Positions 4,356 through 19,892 of a stretch of DNA of 64,000 nucleotides are shown one piece after another. The notes under the pieces are model-generated. The model saw only the letters and a program-made list of their open reading frames with translations, was not told where the DNA came from and ran no database searches. The translations under genes were made by a program, and so were the position numbers. Numbering within the stretch: position 1 is the stretch's first letter; every line of letters begins with the position of its first letter. This DNA comes from Aggregatilineales bacterium (GTDB lineage Bacteria; Chloroflexota; Anaerolineae; Aggregatilineales; Ch27), in assembly GCA_029976005.1 (NCBI GenBank), contig JARKOQ010000208.1:1-64000 (forward strand), in the 5' to 3' direction.

Positions 4356-5450
4356 CTATGACGTGACATCACTATGCCCAGGTTTGCGCCGTCGCAGCAG
4401 GGCCAATAGACGCGGCATGAGCGTCTCGTAAGCCCAGTACAGGGGCGGGAAGGGGGCGTAGTCCCACGCGCCGATGTGGCGCACGACCCGGCCGCCGAAT
4501 CCGCGCTTGAACTGGAAGACTCCCCACATCCGGTCGGATTCGTCGAAGGCGTCCGGCGCGCCCCAGAAGTCGTAGACGGGATAGCCCTGGGCCTTAGCCC
4601 ACTGGATCGCCGCCCATTGCAGGGCATAGTTTGGCATGCGCTGGCGCTCCTCGTTGGAGGACGCGCCGTAGAAGTACCAGCACTTGGGGCCGAAGTGGAG
4701 CAGGATCACGTGGGCCAGGGGTGTGCCGTCCAATTCGGCCAGGAAAGCCTGGGCCAGTCCCGCCCGCATGAAGGTCCCCCACGCCTCCTGGTAGTAGGCC
4801 AGCGGGCGGGTCAGGAAGCCGTCGCGCTGGCCGGTTTGGCGGTACAGCTCGTACAGGGTGGGGATGTCCTCCGACCCGGCGGCGCGGATCGTGACATCCT
4901 TCTTCTCGGCGGTGCGCACTTTGCGGCGGGTGCTCTGGTGCATGTCCATCAGCAGGGTCTCGGCCGGATGGGTCAGGTCGAGCGTGACCGTGTTGCGGAA
5001 CTGGACCTGGCTGGCCGAGAAGCGCCAGCCGCGCGCCTTCAGCGCCGCGACCACGGCCTGCCCGGCCGGATCGTCGGCTGCGTCCGGCTCTCCGGGGACG
5101 CCCGTGCCCGCGATCACGTCCGGGTCGATCTTGAGCCAGATCGCGCCGCGCCGGCGGGCCAGGGCTTGCAAGTGGTCCAGCACGGCGGCCAGGAGATCGG
5201 GCTTCGTGTAGTCTAAGGCCGGGCCTTTGGGCACGTACATCACGCCCAGCGGGCCGACCCGCCGGGTGAGGACCTGGGCGGCGGCGACGGTCTGACCGGC
5301 CTGTTGGAAGGCCAGCCGCTCGGCGGTCCAGCCGGTGGTGCGCCGCTTGAACTCGCCCCATTCCCAGGTTTGCAGCACGTGCGCGTTGGGCAGGGGGCGC
5401 AGCAGATCGTTCCAGGCGGCGGGATCAGTGATGGACGAGATGGTGAGCAT
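4356..5450 (-). CDS. FemAB-like peptidoglycan bridge aminoacyltransferase
   Basis: A 364-residue protein of the FemABX (lipid II:glycyl/alanyl transferase) family, a double GNAT fold that adds amino acids from aminoacyl-tRNA to the stem peptide of the cell-wall precursor. Seen: N-terminal NAHVLQTWEWGEFKRR, the central STRRKVRTAEKKDV segment, and the C-terminal YFYGASSNEERQRMPNYALQW block followed by YPVYDFWGAPD, all typical of the family. It is a paralogue of the gene at 6081-7124. Family assignment is firm; the amino acid added and the acceptor position are unknown. Confidence 0.85.
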   Translation of the reverse strand: MLTISSITDPAAWNDLLRPLPNAHVLQTWEWGEFKRRTTGWTAERLAFQQAGQTVAAAQVLTRRVGPLGVMYVPKGPALDYTKPDLLAAVLDHLQALARRRGAIWLKIDPDVIAGTGVPGEPDAADDPAGQAVVAALKARGWRFSASQVQFRNTVTLDLTHPAETLLMDMHQSTRRKVRTAEKKDVTIRAAGSEDIPTLYELYRQTGQRDGFLTRPLAYYQEAWGTFMRAGLAQAFLAELDGTPLAHVILLHFGPKCWYFYGASSNEERQRMPNYALQWAAIQWAKAQGYPVYDFWGAPDAFDESDRMWGVFQFKRGFGGRVVRHIGAWDYAPFPPLYWAYETLMPRLLALLRRRKPGHSDVTS

Positions 5451-5556
5451 GGGGAATTCTCAATGTCAAATTCCTAACTCTGAATTGGACAGAATGACTG
5501 TCGGATGCTGCTGCACGGCGGAGCGAGGGCCGTCTTGCAGCCTGAACAGGAACCAA

Positions 5557-6075
5557 TCACCAGTCACCACCAACCGTTTTCACGAAATACACCCCGCTGA
5601 CGGGGTAGCCGCTGGCGGTCTCGTAGGTGCCGGGGTGGATCGCGAAGCCCAGGCTGACCTTGAGCGCGTAGTTGGCTTCCTTATCCGTGGACGACCACGA
5701 GCGCATCTGGTAGCAGCCCAGGCGGCGCGTCCAATCCAGGGCAGCCAGCTGGAGATCGCGCCCGATCCCCCGGCGGCGGTACTTCTCCTCGACGGCGAAG
5801 GTGTAGACGTAGGTCTCGGTCAGCGGCTGGCCGTCCGCGCCCCGGACAATCAACTCCTCGCCGCCGCTCCACTCGGTCGCGGGACAGACGATGTCTTGCA
5901 CCTTGAACGTGAGATGCCCAATCACTTTGCCCTCGCGGACGTAACCCAGGCAGATCAGGCCCTCGATCAATTCGCTGCCATGCTCGATCACCCAGCGGGC
6001 CATATTGACCCGCTTGAGGTGATTGATGCAGTCCGGCCACAGGGCGTTGCCCGGCTCGATGCGCTCGACGGACAT
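5557..6075 (-). CDS. GNAT family acetyltransferase between two FemAB genes
   Basis: A 172-residue GNAT protein. The ATG at 6075 begins 5 bases after the stop of the upstream FemAB-like gene, so the two are probably translationally coupled. The acetyl-CoA motif is EEKYRRRGIGRDLQLAALDW, followed by the C-terminal KVSLGFAIHPGTYE. The open frame continues upstream to 7203, but this part lies antiparallel in frame to the FemAB gene and is not coding. Its place between two FemAB paralogues suggests a role in modifying cell-wall precursors, which is inference. Confidence 0.82.
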   Translation of the reverse strand: MSVERIEPGNALWPDCINHLKRVNMARWVIEHGSELIEGLICLGYVREGKVIGHLTFKVQDIVCPATEWSGGEELIVRGADGQPLTETYVYTFAVEEKYRRRGIGRDLQLAALDWTRRLGCYQMRSWSSTDKEANYALKVSLGFAIHPGTYETASGYPVSGVYFVKTVGGDW

Positions 6076-6080
6076 GGGGT

Positions 6081-7124
6081 TCACTCGGCTCCTCGCCCGG
6101 CGCGGCGCAGGTAGAGCTGGTACAGGCGGTAGATCGGGGCACTGTAGACGTAGTCCCAGGCGGGCATGCGGCGCACAACCTGGCCGCCGTAGCCGCGCTT
6201 GGCCCGATAGACGCCCCACAGCCCGTCGCCGCGGTTCTCGAACTCCGCTTCCAATGTGTCCTCGCTGGCGTCGGGTACGCCCCACAGGTCGTAGCGCGTG
6301 CAGCCCTGCTCGCGCGCCCAGCGGATGGCCGCCCATTGCAAGGCGTAGGTTGGCATCCGGTTGCGCTCTTCGTTGGTCGAGGCCCCGTACAGGTACCACG
6401 CGGTTTGACCCAGGGCGAAGACCATGATCCCGGCCAGATCGCGCCCGGCGTAGGAGGCGATCAACAGCGCGACGCGGTTCTGCGGCGCAAACAGATCGTA
6501 GGCCGCCTGGTAGTAAACCGGGTCGTGCACGCCGAAGGCGTCGCGTTCCCCGGTGACCTGCATCATGGCGTTGAAGCTGGCGACATCGGCGCGGGTGCCT
6601 TTGCGGACGACGACGTCTTTTTTCTCGCTCAAGCGGACGTTGTAGCGGGTTTTTTGCTTCATGCGCGCCAGGATGTCCTCTTCGCTGCCGGTCAGGTCGA
6701 TCACGACCGTGCGCACCGGCTGGACGCCCTGCGGGCTGGGCCGGAATCCGGCGCGGGCCAGGGCGGCGGCGATCGGATCGCTTTCCCCGTCGGGAGCTTC
6801 GACTTTCAGCCAGCGCGCGCCGTGCCGCCGGGCGGCGGCGTGAATCTGGCTCCAGAGGCCGGGGGTGTCTGACTCCCACCAGTTTGGGGAGGCGAGGGGG
6901 CCTTTGGGGATGTAGGCCATCCAGCCCAAATGGAAGGGCAGACGGCGGTAGAGGATCTGCGCGCCGCCCGTGACTGCGCCTTGTGTGTCCGCCAGGGGCA
7001 CAATCTCGCTCATCCAGCCGAACTGGCTCTTGAGTTGTCCCCAGGTCGAAAGCTGGAGGAGGTGCGCCTGAGGATGGGCGGCGACAAAGGCATCCCAGGC
7101 CGCCGTGATCGATTGGTCGTCCAA
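6081..7124 (-). CDS. FemAB-like peptidoglycan bridge aminoacyltransferase (second copy)
   Basis: Paralogue of the gene at 4356-5450. It shares AHLLQLSTWGQLKSQ, the KTRYNVRLSEKKDVVVRKG segment, WYLYGASTNEERNRMPTYALQW and CTRYDLWGVPD. I prefer the TTG at 7124, which has GGGGG five bases upstream and places the N-terminus level with the paralogue (347 residues); the frame is open to an ATG at 7247, but the extra residues look non-coding. Two FemAB proteins normally act in sequence to build a bridge of two or more residues. Start is the main uncertainty. Confidence 0.83.
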   Translation of the reverse strand: MDDQSITAAWDAFVAAHPQAHLLQLSTWGQLKSQFGWMSEIVPLADTQGAVTGGAQILYRRLPFHLGWMAYIPKGPLASPNWWESDTPGLWSQIHAAARRHGARWLKVEAPDGESDPIAAALARAGFRPSPQGVQPVRTVVIDLTGSEEDILARMKQKTRYNVRLSEKKDVVVRKGTRADVASFNAMMQVTGERDAFGVHDPVYYQAAYDLFAPQNRVALLIASYAGRDLAGIMVFALGQTAWYLYGASTNEERNRMPTYALQWAAIRWAREQGCTRYDLWGVPDASEDTLEAEFENRGDGLWGVYRAKRGYGGQVVRRMPAWDYVYSAPIYRLYQLYLRRAGRGAE

Positions 7125-7262
7125 TATCGCCCCCGGAGGGTTGAGTCCGCGCAGGGGCGAGTATACCCGATGCGCTGTCCCCGGTGAAGGCGCGAGTCCC
7201 CACCGCGATTCAAACGGCCGGTCGACGCCGGGCTGACCGGATCGCAACGCCTGTCTCTTGTT

Positions 7263-7502: not shown

Positions 7503-7862
7503 ATGAACCTTAATGAATGGGCCTTTGTGGGCATCTTTCTGGCGATTGCCGGAATCCTGCCCGCGGTGCCCATCCTGCTCGGTTGGCTGTTAGGCCCACG
7601 CAAGCCGAATCCCATCAAGACCGACACGTACGAATGCGGCATCGAGACGGTGGGAGATACCTGGGTCCAGTTCAAAGTCCAGTACTACATCTTCGCCCTG
7701 GTCTTCGTCATATTCGACGTCGAAATGCTGTTCCTGTTCCCCTGGGCGGTGGCCTACCAGCGGCTGGACCTGTTCGCCTTTGTGGCGATGACCATTTTCA
7801 TCCTCCTGCTGACGATCGACCTGTTCATCCTGTGGCGCAAGGGTGCCCTGGAATGGACGTGA
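7503..7862 (+). CDS. nuoA: NADH-quinone oxidoreductase subunit A
   Basis: Small three-helix membrane subunit of complex I near the quinone tunnel entrance, 119 residues from the ATG at 7503, which has AAGGAG 9 bases upstream. The family landmarks are present: KPNPIKTDTYECGIETVGD (loop with the conserved Cys that marks NuoA/ND3) and VIFDVEMLFLFPWA with the conserved acidic pair. The frame is open to 7392 but the extension overlaps the promoter. It opens an eight-gene cluster of membrane-arm subunits; no nuoB, C or D follows. Confidence 0.95.
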   Translation: MNLNEWAFVGIFLAIAGILPAVPILLGWLLGPRKPNPIKTDTYECGIETVGDTWVQFKVQYYIFALVFVIFDVEMLFLFPWAVAYQRLDLFAFVAMTIFILLLTIDLFILWRKGALEWT

Positions 7863-7931
7863 TGCACCCCGTCAAATTCAATGAGGTCGGTAGGCTCACT
7901 ATCGGCCTTTTTTGCCTTTTGAGGGAGAGCC

Positions 7932-9227
7932 ATGGTTAAAGATGCCCTGATTCAGGCTGGCATGAACATCGGCTGGGCGACCTTCATCGACCTGCTGCTG
8001 GGCGTGATCGTGGCGGCCAGCTTTGGCATGGTCTGGGTGCTGCTGGGCATCTGGATCGAACGCAAGTGGGCGGGGCGCTTCCAGAACCGGATCGGCCCTA
8101 ACCGGGTCGGCCCGTATGGCAGCATCCAGTCGGTCGCCGACGCGCTTAAGCTGCTGACCAAAGAGGTGATCATTCCGCGCAATGCCGACCGCCCGGTGTA
8201 TTTCCTCGCGCCGGTGCTGGTGGTCGCCTCGGTGATCCTGATCGCGGCGGTGATCCCCTTCTCCCCGGTGGTGATTGGCACCGACCTGAGCATCGGCATC
8301 CTGTACGTGATGGCGGTCAGCTCGATCGGCGCGATCGGTATCATGATGGCGGGGTGGGGCAGCAACAACAAGTACGCCCTGCTGGGGGCGTTCCGCGTGG
8401 TGGCGCAACTGATCAGTTACGAGGTGCCGACTGTGCTCTCGGCCATGATCCCGGTCATGATCGCCGGGACGCTCAGCATGCAGGGCCTGGTCCACGGCCA
8501 GCATGTGTGGTTCATCGTCTCGGCGCCGGTGGCGGCGGTGCTGTTCTTCATCGCCAGCCAGGCGGAACTGGGCCGCGCGCCCTTCGACCTGCTGGAAGCC
8601 GAGAGCGAGCTGGTGGCCGGTTTCAACATCGAATACAGCGGGATGGCCTTCGCCATGTTCTACCTGGCGGAGTTCATGCACAGCTTCTTTGTGGCGATCC
8701 TGTTCTCGGTGCTGTTCCTGGGCGGCTGGCGCGGCCCCGGCGCGGAACAGATTCCCTTCCTGGGGATCGTGTACCTGTTCATCAAATCCATCCTCGTGTA
8801 TTTCGTTTCGGTCTGGCTGCGCCTGACCGTGCCCCGCGTGCGAATCGACCAGCTCCTCAACCTCAACTGGAAGTTCCTGGTTCCGCTGGCGATGATTTAC
8901 GTCATCTTCATGGCGTTCGTGCTCAAGATCGCGCCCGTCCCCGACCTGAGCGGGGCGCAGGCGATCGCGGCAGGGCCGTATGAAGGCGTGGCGAGCGGCA
9001 TCTACCGGCTGCTAGGCCCGGATTTCGTGGCGACACTGCCCCAGGCGGGCGTGCTGCTGCTGGCGAACGTGCTCTTCGTGGTTGTGGCGGCGGCCGTCCT
9101 GCGCGAGGTCTCGCGGCGCAGACGGATGCGCGTCGAAGACCTGGTGGACGAGACCGATTACAGTGGGGCGGGCGGTGCGGGCGGTTACACGCCGGCCGAC
9201 CATAGCGAGACGGCTGCGGCTCGATAG
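7932..9227 (+). CDS. nuoH: NADH-quinone oxidoreductase subunit H
   Basis: Quinone-site membrane subunit that joins the hydrophilic and membrane arms. 431 residues, about 100 longer than the E. coli protein. Quinone-chamber motifs are visible: GRFQNRIGPNRVGPYG followed by ADALKLLTKE, the acidic loop RAPFDLLEAESELVAGFNIEYSG, and the LRLTVPRVRIDQL segment. The extra length sits mainly at the C-terminus after about residue 330, ending in a Gly/Ala-rich tail. ATG at 7932 has a GGGAGAG ribosome site. Its partners NuoB, D and I are not in this cluster. Confidence 0.95.
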   Translation: MVKDALIQAGMNIGWATFIDLLLGVIVAASFGMVWVLLGIWIERKWAGRFQNRIGPNRVGPYGSIQSVADALKLLTKEVIIPRNADRPVYFLAPVLVVASVILIAAVIPFSPVVIGTDLSIGILYVMAVSSIGAIGIMMAGWGSNNKYALLGAFRVVAQLISYEVPTVLSAMIPVMIAGTLSMQGLVHGQHVWFIVSAPVAAVLFFIASQAELGRAPFDLLEAESELVAGFNIEYSGMAFAMFYLAEFMHSFFVAILFSVLFLGGWRGPGAEQIPFLGIVYLFIKSILVYFVSVWLRLTVPRVRIDQLLNLNWKFLVPLAMIYVIFMAFVLKIAPVPDLSGAQAIAAGPYEGVASGIYRLLGPDFVATLPQAGVLLLANVLFVVVAAAVLREVSRRRRMRVEDLVDETDYSGAGGAGGYTPADHSETAAAR

Positions 9228-9239
9228 CGGAGTTGGCCT

Positions 9240-9770
9240 ATGGAACTGACGATTGAGGTGGTTGTTTTCGCGGTGTTCGCCATCATCACCCTGGCGGGAG
9301 CGCTGGGCGTGGTGTTGGCCCGCAACCTGTTCCGCGCCGCGTTGCTCCTGCTGGTGAGCCTGTTCGGCGTGGCGGGGCTGTTCGTGCTGCTGGCGGCGCC
9401 CTTTTTGGCGGCGGTACAGGTACTCCTGTACATGGGCGGCATCGCCATCCTGATCATCTTCGGCGTGATGCTCACCCGGGGGATGGTCCAGGCCCGCCAG
9501 GTGATGAACTCCCAGTGGGACCTGGCGGCGGTGATCGCGCTGGTCACGTTCGTCATCCTGATGATCGTGATCGTCCAGGTGGCCCAGGGCGAGGGCGCGC
9601 CGCTGCCCAGCCTGCCGCGCGGGGATGTCGCCGCGGACAGCATCGCCCAGCTTGGCGCGGCGCTGGTCGACCCGGCCCAGTACGTGCTGCCGTTCGAGGT
9701 GGCGTCGGTGCTGCTGGCCGGTGCGCTGATCGGGGCGGTCTACATCGCCCGCGAAGACGAAGCGGAGTAA
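9240..9770 (+). CDS. nuoJ: NADH-quinone oxidoreductase subunit J
   Basis: Five-helix membrane subunit, 176 residues, the usual size. The N-terminal half (FAIITLAGALGVVLARNLFRAALLL) and the third helix with LLYMGGIAILIIFGVML, which carries the pi-bulge region important for coupling in complex I, are clear. It starts 12 bases after nuoH and ends 6 bases before nuoK, so the three are one transcript. Confidence 0.93.
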   Translation: MELTIEVVVFAVFAIITLAGALGVVLARNLFRAALLLLVSLFGVAGLFVLLAAPFLAAVQVLLYMGGIAILIIFGVMLTRGMVQARQVMNSQWDLAAVIALVTFVILMIVIVQVAQGEGAPLPSLPRGDVAADSIAQLGAALVDPAQYVLPFEVASVLLAGALIGAVYIAREDEAE

Positions 9771-9776
9771 CAGCCC

Positions 9777-10085
9777 ATGATTCCACTCTGGATGTTCCTG
9801 GTGGTTGGCGCGGCGCTGTTCGCCATCGGGGTGTTTGGCGTGCTGGCCCGCCGGAATGCGATCGCGATCCTGATGAGCATCGAGCTGATGCTGAACGCGG
9901 TCAACATCAACCTGGTGGCCTTCTGGCGCTATCTGACGCCGGAGACGATGAGCGGCCAGGCGTTTGCCATTTTCGTCTTCGTGGTGGCGGTGGCCGAGGC
10001 CGCCGTCGGTTTGGCGCTGATCGTGGCAATTTACCGCCGCCGCCAGAGCGTGGTCGCCGAAGACATGAACGTGCTCAAGTGGTAG
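9777..10085 (+). CDS. nuoK: NADH-quinone oxidoreductase subunit K
   Basis: Three-helix proton-channel subunit, 102 residues, related to the MrpC family. Both membrane glutamates needed for proton transfer in NuoK are in place: one in [14 protein letters not shown] (second helix) and one in [15 protein letters not shown] (third helix). Spacing to nuoJ is 6 bases; 73 bases separate it from nuoL. Confidence 0.94.
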
Positions 10086-10158
10086 GTGCGTCCGGCAGTC
10101 GTGCGTCCGGTGGGCCGGGCTAACCCGGCCGGAGCAGCTTACAAGAGGACAGTCCTGC

Positions 10159-12390
10159 ATGATCGATTGGACCAATGCCAACTATTTACCGTGGTTGATC
10201 CCGGTGCCGCCCCTGCTGGCGTTCGGGCTGATCTTCCTGATCACCAACCGGAGCTGGTGGCTGACCGTGGCGACGGCGATCACGGCGACCGTGACCTCCT
10301 GGGTGCTGGCCCTGGCGGTGGTGCTGCGCTCGGTTGGCGCGCCGGTGCTGGGCCTGGCGGCCCCGGAGCACTTCGGCGCGAACGCCTTCGGATCGTCGAC
10401 ACCCTGGCTGAACCTGGGGACAGAACAGTTCAGCCTGGGCGTAGCGGTCGACCCGCTGACCGTGGTGATGCTGTTCATGGTCCCGCTGGCGATCAGCATG
10501 ATCATGATCTATTCGATCGGGTACATGGCCCACGACCCGCGCAAGGAGCGCTTCCTGGGCTACATGACCCTCTTCGCCGGGGCGATGCTGACCCTGGTCG
10601 TGGCCGACAACCTGCTGCTGCTCTTCATCGGCTGGGAAGTGATGGGCTTCTGCTCGTACTCGCTCATCGGTTTCTGGTTCGAGAAGGAGAGCGCCTACAA
10701 AGCCGGCGTCAAAGCCTTCATGACGACCCGCGTGGCGGACGTGTTCCTGCTGCTGGGGATCGCGTACCTGTTCGCCGAGGCGGGCACGCTTAATTTCCGC
10801 GATATTTTCTTCAACGAAGCCTTTTTGGAAAAACTGGCCCAGACTCCGGCGCTGCTGTTGGGCGGCGGGCTGAGCGCGGCCGGGCTGATCGGCGTGTTCA
10901 TCGTGATTGGTACGATCGGCAAGAGCGCCCAGTTCCCGCTGCACGTCTGGCTGCCCGACGCGATGGAAGGCCCGACCCCCGTCAGCGCCATGATCCATGC
11001 CGCCGCGATGGTCTCCGCCGGTGTGTATCTGGTCGTGCGCATGTACCCGCTGCTGGAGGCCGGGGCGGACCCGCACCACGGTATCTACAGCGCGCCGCTG
11101 CTGCTGATGGCCTACGTAGGCGCGTTCACGGCGCTCTTCGCGGCGATCATCGCCGTGGCCCAGAACGATGTCAAGCGCGTGCTGGCCTATTCGACCATCA
11201 GCCAGTTGGGCTTCATGATCGCGGCCCTGGGCATCGGCGCGTACATCGCCGCCGCCTTCCACCTGATCACGCACGGCATTTTCAAAGCGCTGCTCTTCAT
11301 GTCCTCCGGCTCGGTGATCCACGCCATGGAACACGGCGAGCATCACGCCCACGAGCATGGGCACCACCCTCACAATACGTTCGAAAGCGACAAACCCTTT
11401 GACCCGCAGGATATGCGCAACATGGGCGGCCTGCGCGGACGCATCCCGGCCACGTTCTGGTCGTTCCTGGCGGGTGGGATGGCCCTGGCGGGCTTCCCGC
11501 TGATCACGGCCGGCTTCTGGTCCAAGGACGAAATCCTGGCCGAAGCCTGGACGCTCGGCCTGGGCGGCGAGGGCTTTGGCCCGGCGATCTTCGTCTTCAT
11601 CCTGCTGGTGCTGGCGGCCTTCCTGACCGCGTTTTACACCACCCGCCAGCTCGCCATGACCTTCGCCGGAGAGCCGCGCAGCGAGGCGGCGGCCCAGGCG
11701 GGCCTGGGCGGGCCGCGCAGCATGGTCTCCGTGCTGATGCAGGGGCCGCTGCTGGTGCTGGCCGTGTTCGCGGTGATCGCTGGGTTTGTGGGCGTACACC
11801 CGGACTTCCCGCTGTTCGGCGCGATCTTCAGCCCCAGCGGCAACCCGTTCCACGAGTTCGTGGGTGGCACGCTGCCGCATCATCCGCCGACCCTGGCCTT
11901 CAACCTGATCCCGGTGCTGTTCTCGTTCGTGGTGGCGCTGGGCGGTATCTACCTGGGCTACCTGGTCTACTGGCGCAAGCCGCTGGCGGCGGGGCAGGTC
12001 GACCCGACCCAGGCCGCGCTGGACCGGATCAGCCCGGCGATCTACGCTGCGATGCGCAACAAATTCTACGTGGACGAGCTGTATGACGCCGTGTTCGTGA
12101 AGCCCGCCTACTGGTTCAGCGAAACGGTGGTCAGCCGCGTGCTGGATCGGGGCCTGATCGACGGCGTGCTGCACTTCATCGCGCGGGCGGCCACCGTCAT
12201 CGGCGAGACGTTCAAGCGCTTCAACCGCGTCGTGATCGACGGGGTGGGCGACGGCATCCCGCAGGGGATTGGCGCCTTCGGCCGCTGGTTCCGGGCCATC
12301 CAGAGCGGCAATATCCAGCAGTACCTGCTGATGGTGGCGCTCTCGGTCATTGTGATCGGCATCGTGGTGTTCTGGAACCTCGTGCGCTAG
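10159..12390 (+). CDS. nuoL: NADH-quinone oxidoreductase subunit L with extended lateral helix
   Basis: Distal antiporter-like proton pump, 743 residues against 613 in E. coli. Channel motifs are present: WEVMGFCSYSLIGFW (TM5 Glu) and HVWLPDAMEGPTPVSAMIHAA (TM7 Lys region). Two additions stand out. A His-rich cytoplasmic loop (residues about 388-425, HGEHHAHEHGHHPH) interrupts the TM10-11 region. Near the C-terminus, between DRGLIDGV (663-670) and IQSGNIQQYLL (714 on), where an ordinary NuoL has about 20 residues of lateral helix, this protein has about 45, an insertion of roughly 26-28 residues (about 678-705). This fits the second NuoM next door. Confidence 0.95.
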   Translation: MIDWTNANYLPWLIPVPPLLAFGLIFLITNRSWWLTVATAITATVTSWVLALAVVLRSVGAPVLGLAAPEHFGANAFGSSTPWLNLGTEQFSLGVAVDPLTVVMLFMVPLAISMIMIYSIGYMAHDPRKERFLGYMTLFAGAMLTLVVADNLLLLFIGWEVMGFCSYSLIGFWFEKESAYKAGVKAFMTTRVADVFLLLGIAYLFAEAGTLNFRDIFFNEAFLEKLAQTPALLLGGGLSAAGLIGVFIVIGTIGKSAQFPLHVWLPDAMEGPTPVSAMIHAAAMVSAGVYLVVRMYPLLEAGADPHHGIYSAPLLLMAYVGAFTALFAAIIAVAQNDVKRVLAYSTISQLGFMIAALGIGAYIAAAFHLITHGIFKALLFMSSGSVIHAMEHGEHHAHEHGHHPHNTFESDKPFDPQDMRNMGGLRGRIPATFWSFLAGGMALAGFPLITAGFWSKDEILAEAWTLGLGGEGFGPAIFVFILLVLAAFLTAFYTTRQLAMTFAGEPRSEAAAQAGLGGPRSMVSVLMQGPLLVLAVFAVIAGFVGVHPDFPLFGAIFSPSGNPFHEFVGGTLPHHPPTLAFNLIPVLFSFVVALGGIYLGYLVYWRKPLAAGQVDPTQAALDRISPAIYAAMRNKFYVDELYDAVFVKPAYWFSETVVSRVLDRGLIDGVLHFIARAATVIGETFKRFNRVVIDGVGDGIPQGIGAFGRWFRAIQSGNIQQYLLMVALSVIVIGIVVFWNLVR
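12190..12273 (+). other. NuoL lateral-helix insertion (about 28 codons)
   Basis: Approximate coding region of the extra segment of the NuoL HL helix, including FNRVVIDGVGDGIPQG. The VIDGV sequence partly repeats the LIDGV that starts the conserved helix, so it may have arisen by local duplication. Boundaries were judged by eye against the usual NuoL C-terminal pattern (ID-G-hydrophobic, about 20 residues, Q-x-G) and are uncertain by several codons. Confidence 0.6.
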
Positions 12391-12410
12391 GGCCAGGGAG
12401 GCGAAGCTGA

Positions 12411-14030
12411 ATGATCCAGATCGGTAATCTTGTCACGATACCCCTGCTGACGGCGATTGTCTTCCTGCCGCTGCTGGGGGCGATTGTGGTGATGCTGCTC
12501 CCCCGCCAGAACAAGGCCGCCATTCGCTATACGGCGCTCGGCTTCGCGGTGGTGGAGTTCCTGCTCTCGCTCCAGCTTTTCCTGACCTATAACTACGCCG
12601 AGGGCGGTTTCCAGTTCGTCGAGCAGACGGAGTGGTTCGCCCTGCTGGGATCGTCCTGGCACCTGGGCGTGGACGGCATCAGCACGGTGATGATCCTGCT
12701 GACCGGGCTGCTGGTGCCGCTGGGGGTCCTGATCAGCTTTGAGATCGACCGCCAGCCGCGCCTGTTCATGGCCCTCTTCCTGTTTCTGGAAATGGGCATG
12801 ATGGGCGTCTTCGCCAGCCTGGACCTGATGATCTTCTTCGTCTTCTGGGAGATCGGGCTGGTGCCGATGTACTTCCTGATCAACCTGTGGGGCGGCGACA
12901 ACCGGCTGTACGCCTCGGTCAAGTTCTTCCTGTACACCATGGCCGGATCGCTGGGCCTGCTGCTCTCGATCCAGTTGATCGGTCTGACGGCCGGCACGAT
13001 GGACATGGTGCAGTTGTTCCAGTTCTGGCCCGGCTTCGAGGGCAGCGGCGGGACGTTCCTGGGGATCAGCGTGGCGACGGTCAAGGACCTGGCCTTCCTG
13101 GCCTTCTTCCTGGCGTTCGCCATCAAGGTCCCGGTCTGGCCGTTCCATACCTGGCTGCCCGACGCGCACACCGAAGCGCCGACCGCCGGCTCGATGCTGC
13201 TGGCGGGCGTGTTGCTCAAGCTGGGCGCGTACGGCTTCCTGCGGCTGGTGATCCCGCTCTTTCCGGCCCAGGCGGCGGCTTTTGCCCCGGTGATCGCCTT
13301 CCTGGCGATGATGGGCATCGTGCTAGGGGCATTCGCGGCCTACGGACAGGACGACTTCAAGCGGCTGGTGGCCTACAGCTCCGTGAACCACATGGGCTTC
13401 GTGGTGCTGGGCATTGCCGTGGCGGCCTGGGTGTACGGCATCACCTACACCGGCGGCGCGGCGCCCTGGCTGGCGCTCGATCCGGGCACGGTCGCGCTGG
13501 CGGATAAGCAGAGCGCGATCATCGCCACCAACGGCGCGGTGCTCCAGATGTTCAACCACGGCCTCAGTTCGGCGGGCATGTTCCTTCTGGTCGGGGCGCT
13601 GTACCACAAAACGCATACCCGCGACCTGCGCAAGCTGGGCGGGCTGTGGGTGCTGGCCCCGATCTACGGCGGCATCCTGATCTTCACCAGCATGTCGAGC
13701 CTGGGCCTGCCCGGCCTGAACGGCTTCGTGGGCGAGTTCCTCGTGGTGCGCGGGGCGTGGCCGGTCTTCACGGTGGCGACCCTGATCAGTATGCTGGGGT
13801 TGCTCTTCACCGGTGCGTACATCCTCAAGGGGCTGCAGAAGACGTTGCATGGCAAGCCTTCCCAGGAATGGGTGGACTACGACCGCAAGCATCATCGCCT
13901 GGAGATCAGCCTGCGCGAGGTGATCGCCATGCTGCCGCTGATGATCCTGATGCTGGTGACCGGGGTGCTGCCCAACTGGATCCTTCCCATGATCAACGAT
14001 ACCGTCACCCGGCTGTTTGGCGGGTCATGA
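12411..14030 (+). CDS. nuoM: NADH-quinone oxidoreductase subunit M (first copy)
   Basis: Antiporter-like proton pump, 539 residues. Channel residues are visible: FWEIGLVPMYFLINLWGG (TM5 Glu), KVPVWPFHTWLPDAHTEAPTAGS (TM7-8 region with Lys and His), and LLKLGAYGFLRL. The ATG at 12411 has a GGGAGG ribosome site. It is one of two consecutive nuoM genes. The stop at 14030 is 13 bases before the next start. It is the more canonical M of the two by its HTWLPDAHTEAP motif. Confidence 0.94.
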   Translation: MIQIGNLVTIPLLTAIVFLPLLGAIVVMLLPRQNKAAIRYTALGFAVVEFLLSLQLFLTYNYAEGGFQFVEQTEWFALLGSSWHLGVDGISTVMILLTGLLVPLGVLISFEIDRQPRLFMALFLFLEMGMMGVFASLDLMIFFVFWEIGLVPMYFLINLWGGDNRLYASVKFFLYTMAGSLGLLLSIQLIGLTAGTMDMVQLFQFWPGFEGSGGTFLGISVATVKDLAFLAFFLAFAIKVPVWPFHTWLPDAHTEAPTAGSMLLAGVLLKLGAYGFLRLVIPLFPAQAAAFAPVIAFLAMMGIVLGAFAAYGQDDFKRLVAYSSVNHMGFVVLGIAVAAWVYGITYTGGAAPWLALDPGTVALADKQSAIIATNGAVLQMFNHGLSSAGMFLLVGALYHKTHTRDLRKLGGLWVLAPIYGGILIFTSMSSLGLPGLNGFVGEFLVVRGAWPVFTVATLISMLGLLFTGAYILKGLQKTLHGKPSQEWVDYDRKHHRLEISLREVIAMLPLMILMLVTGVLPNWILPMINDTVTRLFGGS

Positions 14031-14043
14031 GGCAGGGGGATTT

Positions 14044-15651
14044 ATGAATTCACCATTTCCCGTACTGAGCATCATCACGCTGACCCCGGTCGTGGCGGCG
14101 CTGTTGATCCTGCTGCTGCCGCGCACTGCCAAACAGGAAGCCCGTTTGATCGCCGCGGCGGCCACCGGCTTCAGCCTGCTGCTGAGCCTGTTTGTCTTCT
14201 TCAATTACAACGTCGATTTCGCCAACGCCGCGACGACCCCGGAGCAGATGTTCCAGTTCCAGGAAAGCACGCCCTGGGTGGAGGCGCTGGGAATCAGCTA
14301 CCACCTGGGGGTGGACGGCGTCAGCGTGCCGATGGTGCTGCTGACCGGTCTGGCCTCGTTCGCCGGGGTGTTGATCTCGTGGGGCATCGACGACCGCCCG
14401 CGCGAGTTTATGGCCTTCTTCCTGCTGCTGGTGGCGGGCGTGTACGGCGTCTTCGTGGCGATGGACCTGTTCGTGCTGTTCTTCTTCTACGAACTGGCGA
14501 TCTTCCCGATGTACCTGCTGATCGCCACCTGGGGTTGGAAAGACCTGCGCGAATACGCTTCGATGAAGCTGACCCTGTATATCCTGATCGGGTCGGTGAT
14601 CGCCCTGGTTGGCGTGATCGCCATGTACTTCGTGGCGGGCGATGCGACCGGGACGTACAGCTTCGACATCACCCACATGATGACCGTGGCGGCCATGCCG
14701 AACAGCCCGTTCGACGCCCAGGTGTTGGGCATCGATGGGCTGACCTTCGCCCGGCTGTGGTTCCCGTTCATCTTCATCGGCTTCGGTGTGCTGGCCGGTT
14801 TGTTCCCCTTCCACAACTGGAGCCCGGACGGCCATGTGGCCGCGCCGACGGCCGTCTCGATGATCCACGCGGGCGTGCTGATGAAGCTCGGCGCGTACAG
14901 CGCCCTGCGGGTGGGCGTGCAGCTTTTGCCGGAGGGGGCGCAGGTGCATCTGCCCTGGATCGTCTTCCTGGCGCTGATCAACGTGGTGTATGGGGCGTTC
15001 ATCGCCATGCGCCAGCGCGACTTCAAGTATGTCATCGGCTTCTCGTCGGTCAGTCACATGGGGCTGGTCAGCCTGGGCTGGGCGACTATGAACATGTACG
15101 GCATGACCGGCGCGGGTCTGCAAATGTTCAGCCACGGCGCGATGACGGCCCTCTTCTTCTCCTGCGTCGGGATGGTCTACGACCGGGCCCATACCCGCGA
15201 CATTCCCAGCCTGGGGGGCTTCAGCAAAAAGATGCCCTGGGTGGCCTTCGCCTTCATCATCGGCGGTCTGGTCAGCATGGGCATGCCGGGTCTGAGCGGG
15301 TTCGTGGCGGAGTTCCCGATCTTCATGGGGCTGTGGGACGCCGGGCCGACGATCGCGCTTAACGTTGGCGCGTGGTCGCTGAACAATTACTACGGCGTCA
15401 TCGCGATCGTCGGCGTGCTGGGCATCGTCGTCACGGCGGCCTACGTGCTGCGTGTCGTGCAGCAAGTGTTCTTCGGGCAGTTCAACGAGGAGCGCTATGG
15501 TGACGTGGGCGACGTGACCGTGCTGGACAAGGCCGCGTTGGTGATGTTGATGGCCGCGCTGATCATCCTTGGAATCTGGCCGGGCATCATGGCGCCGATG
15601 ATCGAAAGCGGCGTCAGGCCGATTGCGCAGTTGCTGCTGGGAGGTGCTTGA
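14044..15651 (+). CDS. nuoM: NADH-quinone oxidoreductase subunit M (second copy)
   Basis: A second full-length antiporter-like subunit of the M type, 535 residues from the ATG at 14044 (GGCAGGGGGA upstream); the frame opens at 14017 inside the previous gene. The channel residues are kept: FYELAIFPMYLLIATWGW (TM5 Glu), FPFHNWSPDGHVAAPTAVSMIHAGVLMKLGAY (His and Lys). HNWSPDGH replaces the usual HTWLPDAH, so it is a diverged paralogue and not a recent duplicate. With all pumping residues present it should be an extra proton channel. It ends exactly one codon junction before nuoN. Confidence 0.93.
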   Translation: MNSPFPVLSIITLTPVVAALLILLLPRTAKQEARLIAAAATGFSLLLSLFVFFNYNVDFANAATTPEQMFQFQESTPWVEALGISYHLGVDGVSVPMVLLTGLASFAGVLISWGIDDRPREFMAFFLLLVAGVYGVFVAMDLFVLFFFYELAIFPMYLLIATWGWKDLREYASMKLTLYILIGSVIALVGVIAMYFVAGDATGTYSFDITHMMTVAAMPNSPFDAQVLGIDGLTFARLWFPFIFIGFGVLAGLFPFHNWSPDGHVAAPTAVSMIHAGVLMKLGAYSALRVGVQLLPEGAQVHLPWIVFLALINVVYGAFIAMRQRDFKYVIGFSSVSHMGLVSLGWATMNMYGMTGAGLQMFSHGAMTALFFSCVGMVYDRAHTRDIPSLGGFSKKMPWVAFAFIIGGLVSMGMPGLSGFVAEFPIFMGLWDAGPTIALNVGAWSLNNYYGVIAIVGVLGIVVTAAYVLRVVQQVFFGQFNEERYGDVGDVTVLDKAALVMLMAALIILGIWPGIMAPMIESGVRPIAQLLLGGA

Positions 15652-17130
15652 TTGGACTTCCAAACGGTGGACTGGACGGTGAGCCTGCTCGCCATTTTGC
15701 CGGAGATTCTGCTGACCGTGCTGGTCGTGGTCATCCTGATCCTGGATGCCCTGTGGCCAGAGAGCCGGCGGCGGCAGCTTGGGATCATCAGCGGCGTTGC
15801 GATGCTCGGTATCCTGGCGGCGATGCTGATTTTCGTCGCGCCGCTGCAAGGTGAACTGCGTGACCAGCTCCTGCTGGGCGGCATGATCCGGCACGACGTG
15901 CTGACCCAGATTTTCCGGGCCATGATCCTGCTGGCCGGGGCGCTGACCTGCTTCATCAGCGTCGACCTGCCCGGCGCGGGCCGCCAGGGGGGCTACTATG
16001 CCCTGGTGGCGGTGGCGACCCTGGGCGCGGGCCTGATGAGCGCGGCGGCCGACCTGATCATGGTCTTCATCGCGCTGGAGACGACCTCGATCAGCCTGTA
16101 TATGCTGGCCGGGTTCCTGCGCGGGGATGAGCGCTCGGCCGAAAGCGGGGTGAAGTACTTCCTGTTCGGCGCGTTCGCCTCGGCGGTCGCGCTGTATGGC
16201 CTGAGCCTGCTGTACGGCTTCAGCGGCCAGACCAACATCTACCTGATCGCCGACGGGCTGGCCTCCGGTTCTATTGGCGGCCTGCCGGTGCTGGTGGCGC
16301 TGATGCTGGTCGTGGTGGGCTTCGGCTTCAAGATCAGCGCGGTGCCGTTCCACTTCTGGACGCCGGACGTGTACGAAGGCGCGCCGACCCCGATCACGGC
16401 GTTCATCAGCGTGGCGAGCAAGGCGGCCAGCTTCGCCCTGCTGCTGCGCTTTTTCATGGCCGTCTTCCCCGGGTACGACGAAGTCTGGGTCAACCTGCTG
16501 GCGGTCTCGTCGGTGGTGACGATGACCCTGGGCAACGTCGTGGCCCTGTGGCAGAAGAACATCAAGCGCATGCTGGCTTATTCGTCGATCGCCCAGGCGG
16601 GCTATACCCTGATCGGCGTGGTGGCGATCAGCGCCCAGGGCGGGGCGGGCATGGCGGCGGTGATCTTCTATATGGCCATGTACACGCTGACCAACATTGG
16701 CGCGTTCACCGTGGCCTTCCTGGTCAGCCGGGCGACCGGCAGCGAGGCCATCGCCGACATGGCCGGCCTGAGCCGACGCAGTCCGGCCCTGGCCCTGGCG
16801 ATGACGGTTGCGCTGCTCTCGCTGGGCGGCATCCCGCCTGCGGCCGGGTTCTTTGGCAAGTTCTTCCTGTTCAACGCGGCGGTGGATGCCGGGTTCGTGT
16901 GGCTGGCCCTGGTGGCCGTGATCAACGCCATCATTGCCCTGTACTACTACCTGATGGTGATCAAGGTCATGTACGTCGACCGCAGCGCCGACGAGGCGCA
17001 GCCGATCCCGGTCGGCCGGACATATGGCTGGGCGCTGATCATCACCACTCTGGGTGTGATTTTCCTGGGCATTGTCGCCTCGCCGGTGTATAACTGGGCG
17101 CTGGCGGCCGGACAGGAGCTGCTGTTCTAG
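15652..17130 (+). CDS. nuoN: NADH-quinone oxidoreductase subunit N
   Basis: Antiporter-like proton pump proximal to the quinone module, 492 residues. TM5 Glu is in FIALETTSISLYMLAGF and the TM7-8 region reads KISAVPFHFWTPDVYEGAPTPITAF, the standard NuoN signature. The start is TTG at 15652, directly abutting the nuoM2 stop, with GGGAGGTG 6-13 bases upstream; the adjacency implies translational coupling. Last gene of the nuo cluster. Confidence 0.94.
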   Translation: MDFQTVDWTVSLLAILPEILLTVLVVVILILDALWPESRRRQLGIISGVAMLGILAAMLIFVAPLQGELRDQLLLGGMIRHDVLTQIFRAMILLAGALTCFISVDLPGAGRQGGYYALVAVATLGAGLMSAAADLIMVFIALETTSISLYMLAGFLRGDERSAESGVKYFLFGAFASAVALYGLSLLYGFSGQTNIYLIADGLASGSIGGLPVLVALMLVVVGFGFKISAVPFHFWTPDVYEGAPTPITAFISVASKAASFALLLRFFMAVFPGYDEVWVNLLAVSSVVTMTLGNVVALWQKNIKRMLAYSSIAQAGYTLIGVVAISAQGGAGMAAVIFYMAMYTLTNIGAFTVAFLVSRATGSEAIADMAGLSRRSPALALAMTVALLSLGGIPPAAGFFGKFFLFNAAVDAGFVWLALVAVINAIIALYYYLMVIKVMYVDRSADEAQPIPVGRTYGWALIITTLGVIFLGIVASPVYNWALAAGQELLF

Positions 17131-17272: not shown

Positions 17273-17608
17273 TTGGACCCCGATCGTGACGAGCCTATCC
17301 AGAGGTCTGCTCAGGGGCCAATCCCTGTCCCACCGGAGCAGCGGGCGCGCAATCTGGCGCTGGCAGCGGTAGCGGGGCAGGTGGGGTGTTCCACGGTCGT
17401 CCTGATTTTCCTGGCGCTGTTCGCGGGGCTGTGGCTGGACGCGCAGTTTGGCGTCAAAGGGCCGTTTACCATCATTTTGCTGCTGCTCAGCATACCGGTC
17501 AGCCTGTTTCTGGTACTGCGCATGGCGCTGGGCGCGGTGCGCGCCATCCAACCGCCGGCGGCTGAGGCTGAAAACGGGTCTAAGGCTGTGCGTGTGAAGG
17601 AGGATTGA
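17273..17608 (+). CDS. atpI: ATP synthase accessory protein, AtpI/AtpZ type
   Basis: A 111-residue protein with two membrane helices (VAGQVGCSTVVLIFLALFAGLWL and FTIILLLLSIPVSLFLVLRMAL) separated by a short DAQFGVKG loop, the layout of the AtpI/AtpZ family that precedes atpB and assists c-ring assembly or Mg uptake. Start is TTG at 17273 with CAGGGAGA upstream. The N-terminal 25 residues are polar and the C-terminal 25 are charged. Whether AtpI or AtpZ cannot be separated by eye. Confidence 0.75.
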   Translation: MDPDRDEPIQRSAQGPIPVPPEQRARNLALAAVAGQVGCSTVVLIFLALFAGLWLDAQFGVKGPFTIILLLLSIPVSLFLVLRMALGAVRAIQPPAAEAENGSKAVRVKED

Positions 17609-17652
17609 CCGTTGCAATGTAGGCATGGGTGTGTAGAGAGGAGGGTCTCTTT

Positions 17653-18882
17653 GTGAATAAGACCACACGGGGACTCCTCATCCTGGTGGGTATCATCGTC
17701 GTAACCGGGCTTCTGTGTCTCTGGCTGCCCTTCGTCGGGCTGCCGGGGGCCAGCATCGGGGTGGCGCTGCCAGTCATCTACGTGCCGGGCGAGGTTCTGG
17801 TCAAGGATTTCTTTGGTGAGGGAGTTCACCTGACCAATACGCTCGTGGGCATGTTCCTGGCGGACGCCGTGGTGCTGTTGATCCTGGCGGCGCTCTACCT
17901 GCGGGGAGGAGTCAAGCTGATTCCGGGTCGCCTCCAGGCGATGCTGGAATTGCTGGTCAACTACATGTACAACCTGGCGAAGTCCGTGGCCGGGTCGCAG
18001 GCCGGGCGGGTCTTTCCCCTGGTGATGGGCATCTTCCTGTTCCTGCTGGTGGCGAACTGGCTGGAGCTGGTTCCCGGCGTGGACAGCGTGGGTCTGCTGC
18101 ACTGCGCGCCGGAAGGCTTCAACGGCTATCCCATCAACCAGGACAGCCCCGAAGGCGTGGTGACGCTGCGCGTGGACAGCCCGCTGAACAGCGGCACGCG
18201 CGCCACGCTGGCCGATTTCTGCGCGTGCGAGCTGACGCACCTGGGCCATATTCCGAAGGAATATACCGAGTCCTGCGCGGCGGCCGGATTTGTGGCTGAG
18301 CATGGCGAAGGCGAAGCCGCAGGTGGCGGCGAGACACATACGGAAGGCGAAGCAACGACCACCGAGGGCGAAGCGGCCACCACCGAAGGTGAAGGCGAGA
18401 CCGTTGCCGTGTCGGCCGGGGCCAACCCGAACCTGTTTGTGGTGACGCCCTTCGTGCGCGCCGCCGCGACCGACCTCAACCTGACGGTCGCGCTGGCCCT
18501 GATCGCCGTGATCGCCGTCCAGGTCTTCGGCGTGATGGCGCTGGGGCCGGATTACTTCCAGAAGTTCTTCAACCTGCGTGCCCTGGGCAACCTGGGCAAG
18601 AAGCCGATGGGGGTGATGGACTTCGCGGTGGGCCTGCTGGAGATCATCTCGGAGTTCTCCCGCGTGCTCAGTTTTGCCTTCCGTCTCTTCGGCAATATCT
18701 TCGGCGGCCAGGTGCTGCTGTTCGTGATGGCGTTCCTGGTCGCGGCGATTTTGCCGGCGATTTTCTATGCATTCGAACTGTTCGTCGGCCTGATCCAGGC
18801 GTTCGTGTTTGCGATGCTGACCCTGGCGTTCAGCGCGCAGGCGATGGCCGGGCATGGCGACGGCGGACACGAGCACGAATAG
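17653..18882 (+). CDS. atpB: ATP synthase subunit a with large Cys/acidic insertion
   Basis: Proton half-channel subunit of Fo. GTG at 17653, 7-12 bases after GAGGAGGG, gives 409 residues; typical bacterial a subunits are 240-310. The conserved C-terminal core is clear: TPFVRAAATDLNLTVALAL, ISEFSRVLSFAFRLFGNIFGGQ with the essential Arg, and LIQAFVFAMLTLAF. The excess is an insertion at about residues 147-258 between LELVPGVDSVG and NPNLFVVTPF. It has four Cys (HCAP, FCAC, SCAA) and a low-complexity tract with repeated EGEA/TTTEGE units. By topology this loop should lie outside the membrane; its function is unknown. Confidence 0.92.
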   Translation: MNKTTRGLLILVGIIVVTGLLCLWLPFVGLPGASIGVALPVIYVPGEVLVKDFFGEGVHLTNTLVGMFLADAVVLLILAALYLRGGVKLIPGRLQAMLELLVNYMYNLAKSVAGSQAGRVFPLVMGIFLFLLVANWLELVPGVDSVGLLHCAPEGFNGYPINQDSPEGVVTLRVDSPLNSGTRATLADFCACELTHLGHIPKEYTESCAAAGFVAEHGEGEAAGGGETHTEGEATTTEGEAATTEGEGETVAVSAGANPNLFVVTPFVRAAATDLNLTVALALIAVIAVQVFGVMALGPDYFQKFFNLRALGNLGKKPMGVMDFAVGLLEIISEFSRVLSFAFRLFGNIFGGQVLLFVMAFLVAAILPAIFYAFELFVGLIQAFVFAMLTLAFSAQAMAGHGDGGHEHE

Positions 18883-18909
18883 TCTCTATACGAGCCTAAT
18901 AACCTTTAA

Positions 18910-19173
<264 letters not shown>

Positions 19174-19190
19174 CACAGGGGAGGCACACC

Positions 19191-19892
19191 GTGGAAGCGT
19201 TAGGGATCAATGCCGGCTTTCTGATCGCACAGTTCATCAACTTCGGGGTGATCTTTGTCCTGCTGGCCGTGGCCGCGTGGAAGCCGCTGACCCGCGTCCT
19301 CGACGAGCGGGCGCGCAAGATCGCCCAGCAGCTTGAGGATTCGGAAGTGGCTGCCAAGGCGCGCGCCAACGCGGAAGCCGAAGCCAACCGGATTCTGGAA
19401 GACGCCCGCCGCAACGCGGCCGGATTCGCGGACGAAGCGCGTGGCCGTGGCGAGGATGCCGCCAAGGGTATCCTGGCCGAAGCCCATGCCGAGGCCGAGA
19501 AGATCATGAGTGAAGCCCGCGCCAAGGCCGAGGACGAGCGCAACCGCCAGCTCGCGGAACTGCGCGGGCAGGTGGGGGCGCTGGCGATCGCCGCCGCCCA
19601 GAAATTGCTGGGCGAGGCGCTCGACGAGAAGCGCCAGCGCGCCCAGATCGACCGCTTCTTTGCCGAGGCGCCGGATACGGCGCGCGGCCTGGGCGGCCGG
19701 GTCGAGGTCGTGACGGCGCTGCCCCTGACGGACAAGGAGCAGGCCGATGTTAAGGCCAAGACCGCGGCCAGCGAGGTGAGTTTCCGCGTCGATCCGACGA
19801 TCCTGGGCGGGATGATCCTGCGCTCCGGCGACCGGGTCGTCGACGCCAGCATGCGCTCCGGTCTGCGGGACATCGCCGGGCGGCTCAACTAA
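19191..19892 (+). CDS. atpF: ATP synthase subunit b fused to the C-terminal part of delta
   Basis: 233 residues starting at GTG 19191 (GGGGAGG upstream). Residues 1-30 hold the single membrane helix (FLIAQFINFGVIFVLLAVAAW), 30-150 a long Ala/Glu/Arg-rich coiled coil, as in subunit b. Residues 171-233 match the C-terminal end of delta/OSCP: VVTALPLTDKEQADV, then DPTILGGMILRSGDRVVDAS and RSGLRDIAG. The six-helix N-terminal domain of delta, which binds the top of F1 alpha, is absent. No atpH, A, G, D or C follows; a terminator closes the operon. Mycobacterial b-delta fusions keep the full delta, so this compact form differs. Confidence 0.9.
   Translation: MEALGINAGFLIAQFINFGVIFVLLAVAAWKPLTRVLDERARKIAQQLEDSEVAAKARANAEAEANRILEDARRNAAGFADEARGRGEDAAKGILAEAHAEAEKIMSEARAKAEDERNRQLAELRGQVGALAIAAAQKLLGEALDEKRQRAQIDRFFAEAPDTARGLGGRVEVVTALPLTDKEQADVKAKTAASEVSFRVDPTILGGMILRSGDRVVDASMRSGLRDIAGRLN

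Follow-up and report, generated by a model that had tools for sequence, protein, structure and literature searches.

A Chloroflexota-type 2M complex I membrane arm whose second NuoM lacks the TM7 lysine

Complex I with a second NuoM (the 2M type) was reportedly described in Chloroflexi by Chadwick et al. in 2018, according to papers that cite that work. Complexes of this type are cited as possibly moving a fifth proton in each cycle, an idea on which energetic considerations about nitrifiers, phototrophs and anaerobes rest. In a study of Lost City Chloroflexi, which credits Chadwick et al. 2018, the genes are arranged as nuoLM1M2N with a separate nuoBCDI and a fused nuoCD (PMC7117926). An additional nuoM was noted in Chloroflexus aggregans (PMC8004040), and a duplicated nuoM was listed for Chloroflexus aurantiacus in 2011 (PMC3150298). 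Here we analysed 64,000 nucleotides from an Aggregatilineales bacterium (contig JARKOQ010000208.1, positions 1 to 64,000; this whole stretch is called the window below), corresponding to contig C189 of a draft genome of 4.76 Mb in 268 contigs. The plus strand of the window carries the operon nuoA-H-J-K-L-M1-M2-N (7503-17130). As judged from sequence, this locus encodes a 2M complex I membrane arm of the Chloroflexota type, a kind that is already known and class-wide. The points for specialists are the loss of a lysine from transmembrane helix 7 (TM7) of the second NuoM (M2) and a sister clade of complexes with a single NuoM.

Both nuoM genes are complete and lie between nuoL and nuoN, as the original prediction stated; their products scored 524 and 451 bits against TIGR01972 (NDH_I_M; cut-off 264) and far under the cut-offs of the MrpD and hydrogenase models of NCBIfam. 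Two nuoM genes side by side could also arise from recent tandem copying or misassembly. However, identity between M1- and M2-type proteins is only about 36%, the two types form separate, well-supported clades within NuoM, and the arrangement recurs in many independent genomes. The trees refute this explanation, which we regard as practically negligible, and a tandem duplicate origin of M1 and M2 was rejected. Gene order, an insertion in the lateral helix (HL) of NuoL and NuoM phylogeny all match the Chloroflexi type described earlier, and the predicted 2M label is therefore right. A close M2 match (>500 bits) was found in most genomes of the window's class within a 151-genome sample of the phylum. 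M1 adjoins M2 in all inspected loci of the class that cover both genes, and L-M1-M2-N is likewise the order in those other fetched 2M loci where NuoL and the two NuoMs are covered. The nearest named relative is an Ardenticatenia metagenome-assembled genome, with 87% identity in M2.

The missing TM7 lysine of M2

Alignment with E. coli NuoL, NuoM and NuoN indicated that M1 keeps all four key residues (E147, K239, K270 and E442). M2 keeps E150 (E. coli E144), K281 (K265), H338, H364 and E423 (E407), and has a leucine (Leu250) at the place of E. coli K234; no other lysine is present in its TM7. Comparison of the TM7 motif of M2 (GFGVLAGLFPFHNWSPDGH) with that of M1 (AFAIKVPVWPFHTWLPDAH) rules out a misalignment. 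The substitution is general, as the position is Leu in 17 of 17 M2s and Lys in 17 of 17 M1s of 2M complexes. The original prediction had assigned the channel Glu and Lys residues to both NuoMs, which is correct for M1 and, at the TM7 position, wrong for M2. In E. coli NuoM, K234, K265 and E144 are reported to be essential (PMC5061711). In current models, K234 and E144 make up an ion pair, and the signal travels down the arm as this pair opens (PMC9271201, PMC13324432). Since M2 lacks this lysine, the larger number of protons per donor that had been expected from two complete pumps cannot be deduced.

In the published reading of 2M complexes, all four antiporter-like subunits pump, so that roughly five protons are moved for every two electrons or, in the reverse direction, five are spent on low-potential reductant. 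The HL insertion and the gene content fit the 2M descriptions, M2 is well conserved, and it retains the TM5 Glu, the TM8 Lys, the bridging His and the TM12 Glu. However, the TM7 lysine is gone, the M2s of one family (L075 and L076) additionally lack H248, H348 and the lysine corresponding to K265, and an M2-type NuoM also works alone in complexes with three antiporter-like subunits. One extra proton per cycle is a proposal, and the sequence speaks against a canonical fourth pump; we find it doubtful that all four subunits pump. In L075 (4920-10239) and L076 (4115-9499), the residues replacing H248, H348 and K265 are Tyr, Gly and Ala, respectively, and a Lys stands one residue earlier than the 265 position.

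Alternatively, the proton path may have been rewired, with a TM8 histidine (His275 in the window) standing in for the TM7 lysine, and M2 would then act as a genuine fourth pump whose chemistry has changed. This histidine was gained in most M2s and in most single-NuoM complexes with the TM7 leucine, whereas NuoMs with the lysine in place have Leu (once Val) there. A TM8 histidine occurs nearby in NuoL as well, and NuoL H254 lies in a proposed input channel (PMC13324432). On the other hand, L074 has Leu at this position and L126, L127, L129, L131 and L132 have Ala, and all of them still lack the lysine, so that the histidine is not strictly required. Such a rewired fourth pump seems to us rather unlikely.

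NuoM phylogeny and the proposed role of M2

NuoM trees were made with sequences of a single phylum. The first one comprised 60 rows, was rooted with NuoN and was drawn up from sequences other than those of Mrp and hydrogenases. In this tree, M1 formed a clade (98/99) that joined the NuoMs of 14-gene complexes (86/81), and M2 formed a clade (98/91) that joined, with weak support, the NuoMs of 11-subunit complexes (83/56). Thus both proteins group with NuoM in the NuoN-rooted tree as well as by NCBIfam scores, and by the latter neither M1 nor M2 sides with Mrp or hydrogenase subunits. Two complexes with one NuoM of the leucine type (L082 and L090) appeared as sisters of M2. When 400 genomes were searched with the NuoM of L082, many more were obtained, namely about 26 distinct loci in which a leucine-type NuoM stands alone with NuoL directly upstream, except that L119 had no NuoL match within the sequence covered. 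In the enlarged tree, support was 100/99 for M1, 100/99 for M2 and 100/93 for the single-NuoM leucine clade, the last two being sisters (100/100). These single-NuoM complexes, with three antiporter-like subunits altogether, are widespread in Chloroflexota. In the simplest order of events, the TM7 lysine would have been lost first in the line of M2, and M1 and the long HL would have come later. A lysine loss followed by a single gain of M1 and the HL insertion takes fewer steps than a gain followed by a loss.

M2 might also be a passive spacer, purely structural and conducting no protons. Its ion pair is broken, and more residues are lost in L075 and L076. Moreover, HycC of E. coli formate hydrogenlyase has a leucine (L208) at the place of the TM7 lysine and tolerated all tested residue exchanges with its activity unaffected (PMC5061711). 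However, every M2 retains the TM5 Glu and the TM12 Glu, and the TM8 Lys is missing only from those of L075 and L076. In addition, across the deepest split of 2M complexes (L079, L080 and L081), M2 is more conserved (46-48% identity) than M1 (37-39%), and M2 is therefore not decaying. This favours a functional, non-canonical M2, and a mere spacer is in our view clearly improbable.

The explanation that we favour, with a probability of roughly 60%, is a 2M membrane arm in which M2 is a modified relay and M1, added later, is the canonical NuoM pump. The genes, residues, HL length, tree and association with nuoB, nuoCD and nuoI are observations, and the order of the subunits, the role of M2 and the stoichiometry are inferred. 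As gene order and HL length suggest, the order of the four antiporter-like subunits is most probably N-M2-M1-L, and the extended NuoL helix would run across all of them. N, M1 and L carry the canonical pumping residues. In M2, the ion pair between the TM5 Glu and the TM7 Lys is broken by the change to Leu, usually together with the new TM8 histidine. M2 would then most likely be a conserved functional relay with a modified way of passing charge or a proton signal between N and M1, and M1 would supply the canonical NuoM pumping step. The lysine would have been lost in a single-NuoM ancestor, to which M1, a relative of the NuoM of 14-gene complexes, and the HL extension were added afterwards. 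That 2M means one more pump is thus not established, as M1 may replace the step lost in M2, and the odds that each cycle yields one proton more appear to be somewhat below even. More tentatively, the ion pair may have been dismantled first in Chloroflexota single-NuoM complexes that survive today, and the 2M complex may have arisen by insertion of a second NuoM bearing the lysine, so that the fourth module restores or replaces a pumping step and adds none; the enzyme would then not be a five-proton pump.

The NuoL lateral helix and points against the proposed explanation

HL length was taken without alignment, as the distance between two anchors, DELY and (T/S)GxxQxY (SGNIQQY in the window). 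This distance is 77 in the window and 75-79 in 2M NuoLs, compared with 46 in E. coli and 49-51 in most Chloroflexota complexes with one NuoM; it is 50 in the single-NuoM leucine-type complexes (L082, L090 and L109-L136) wherever NuoL could be measured. The window HL is thus 27 residues longer than that of an ordinary single-NuoM Chloroflexota complex I, in agreement with the predicted excess of about 26-28 residues. Because all the 2M NuoLs measured have values of 75-79, the extension in the window is not due to chance. An alignment of 40 NuoL sequences contained the same insertion, which is common to the 2M sequences. An AlphaFold2 model of NuoL alone, made from a four-row alignment, had a predicted local distance difference test score of 48.6, too poor for judging the helix.

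A long HL occurs also with one NuoM: the anchor distance is 80 in L084 and L085, which belong to 14-gene complexes, and 80 in L089. Judged by eye, HL is similarly long in the single-NuoM loci L141, L142, L139, L140 and L144, and these extensions (about 26-30 residues) are located in the same stretch of HL as the 2M insertion. A long HL is thus to be expected in a 2M complex but, since extensions of about 30 residues occur with one NuoM, is no proof of a second NuoM. The original prediction had taken the joint occurrence of two NuoMs and a long HL as an argument for a working enlarged enzyme; the co-occurrence is real and the argument from it is weaker. A comparable remark has been made for Manganitrophaceae (PMC9040806). 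Several observations weigh against the explanation favoured above. First, in the NuoL tree the single-NuoM leucine-type complexes do not stand beside the 2M ones, and the NuoN tree leaves their position unresolved. These trees lack the sisterhood seen with NuoM, and therefore the operon may not be inherited as one unit. Second, a reversion, in which a 2M ancestor lost M1 and the insertion and gave rise to the single-NuoM leucine clade, would cost only one extra step. Finally, M2 retains E150, K281, both bridging histidines and E423; His275 may replace the lysine, and M2 would then still pump.

Some further features of the long helices were observed. In the complete genomes G003, G104 and G025, which have long-HL single-NuoM complexes, a search for an orphan fourth antiporter subunit revealed no evident spare NuoM and gave only Mrp- or hydrogenase-like pairs (by position and size) and weak distant matches. 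The genome of the window itself has another NuoL (L014; G000:C23, 1482-3860) with an anchor distance of 79, which is probably part of its own second, split 14-gene complex I. In the single-NuoM loci L144 and L139, the extra piece of HL is an apparent internal duplication (26- and 29-residue shift; FDRYVIDGLVNG / FDHYVVDGLVNG). The signal is suggestive in L089 and in the 2M locus L074. For the window it has an uncorrected p of about 0.04, and we do not claim an internal duplication there.

If all Chloroflexota 2M M2s miss half of the ion pair that drives the mechanisms now proposed, stoichiometry cannot be derived by counting antiporter subunits. The natural variants, M2 together with M1 and the same type of NuoM alone, provide a test of whether each antiporter-like subunit must pump, an old dispute about complex I. 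Chloroflexus is culturable. With the lysine missing from one of the two copies, the usual claim that an extra NuoM equals one extra pumped proton can be tested directly.

Gene content and comparison with known complexes

The features of the operon are listed in Table 1. Elsewhere in the same genome, contig C163 carries nuoB, fused nuoCD and nuoI in a cluster of their own (locus L031). Their best matches among the fetched loci were the peripheral subunits of Chloroflexia-type 2M operons (53-57% for the NuoD part), and the other nuoD of the genome, on C221, is just 40% identical to that on C163. The C163 cluster therefore most likely completes the membrane arm of the window. No NuoE, NuoF or NuoG was seen in the membrane-arm cluster or in the C163 cluster. 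A different cluster of the genome (L012; G000:C257, 8827-17055) encodes a NuoL-like protein of 746 amino acids, a NuoN-like protein of 496 amino acids and, after these, proteins resembling NuoB, NuoC, NuoD, NuoH and NuoI; it looks like an energy-converting hydrogenase or a hydrogenase-related complex.

Table 1 Features of the nuo operon in the window.
Feature	Position	Strand	Basis and remarks
nuoA	7503..7862	+	NCBIfam subunit A models; first gene of the operon
nuoH	7932..9227	+	NCBIfam NuoH, 338 bits
nuoJ	9240..9770	+	NCBIfam NuoJ
nuoK	9777..10085	+	NCBIfam NuoK
nuoL, 743 aa	10159..12390	+	TIGR01974, 560 bits; E160, D194, K255, H372 and K456 present
NuoL residues 639-716, stretch holding HL	12073..12306	+	77 residues between anchors
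HL insertion, ~27 residues, approx. NuoL residues 667-693	12157..12237	+	Alignment of 40 NuoL and anchor distance; edges alignment-dependent
nuoM1, 539 aa	12411..14030	+	TM5 E147, TM7 K239, TM8 K270, TM12 E442; groups with NuoM of 14-gene complexes
nuoM2, 535 aa	14044..15651	+	E150, K281, E423; TM7 Lys replaced by Leu250; new TM8 His275; clusters with NuoM of 11-subunit complexes
Codon of M2 Leu250 (E. coli NuoM K234)	14791..14793	+	Alignment with E. coli L, M and N
Codon of M2 His275 (E. coli NuoM L259)	14866..14868	+	Alignment
nuoN, 492 aa	15652..17130	+	TIGR01770, 419 bits; E143, K227 and K403 present

Downstream of nuoN, F0 ATP synthase genes follow on the same strand (17273-19892), encoding an AtpI-like protein, subunit a and a b/delta-like protein. 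Subunit a (17629-18882, 417 amino acids) has an acidic low-complexity loop rich in Glu, Gly and Thr. Upstream, on the minus strand and divergent from the nuo operon (4356-7247), are two genes for FemAB-family aminoacyltransferases (4356-5450 and 6081-7247), which flank a GNAT acetyltransferase-like gene.

The Protein Data Bank matches of M2 were all chains named as complex I, NDH, Mrp or related complexes, with no apparent solved 2M complex among them. The core subunits A, H, J, K, L, M and N of the membrane arm are shared with E. coli respiratory complex I, which differs in having a single NuoM, an NADH module within the operon and an HL stretch that is 31 residues shorter. HycC carries a leucine in a TM7 motif near-identical to that of M2 (GFGLLAGIIPLHGW vs GFGVLAGLFPFHNW), but it belongs to another family by NCBIfam scores and is the antiporter-like subunit of a hydrogenase complex; the resemblance is probably convergent. 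The 11-subunit, single-NuoM Chloroflexota complexes of the sister clade have, like M2, a GFGxLAG-type TM7 motif and usually the TM8 His, whereas they lack M1 and their HL is of normal length. Nitrospira 2M complex I and Complex_I_3 of Candidatus Manganitrophaceae likewise combine an extra NuoM with an HL insertion of about 26 residues, and differ from the Chloroflexota complexes in their reported separate (convergent) origin (PMC12342949, PMC9040806). The Chloroflexi 2M complexes of Anaerolinea thermophila, Chloroflexus aggregans and C. aurantiacus share with the window the order nuoL-M-M-N, the long HL and clusters without NuoE, NuoF and NuoG. Together with nuoB, fused nuoCD and nuoI lying apart from the membrane-arm operon, as in the Anaerolineae arrangement, these features leave no essential difference between the window and the Chloroflexi type.

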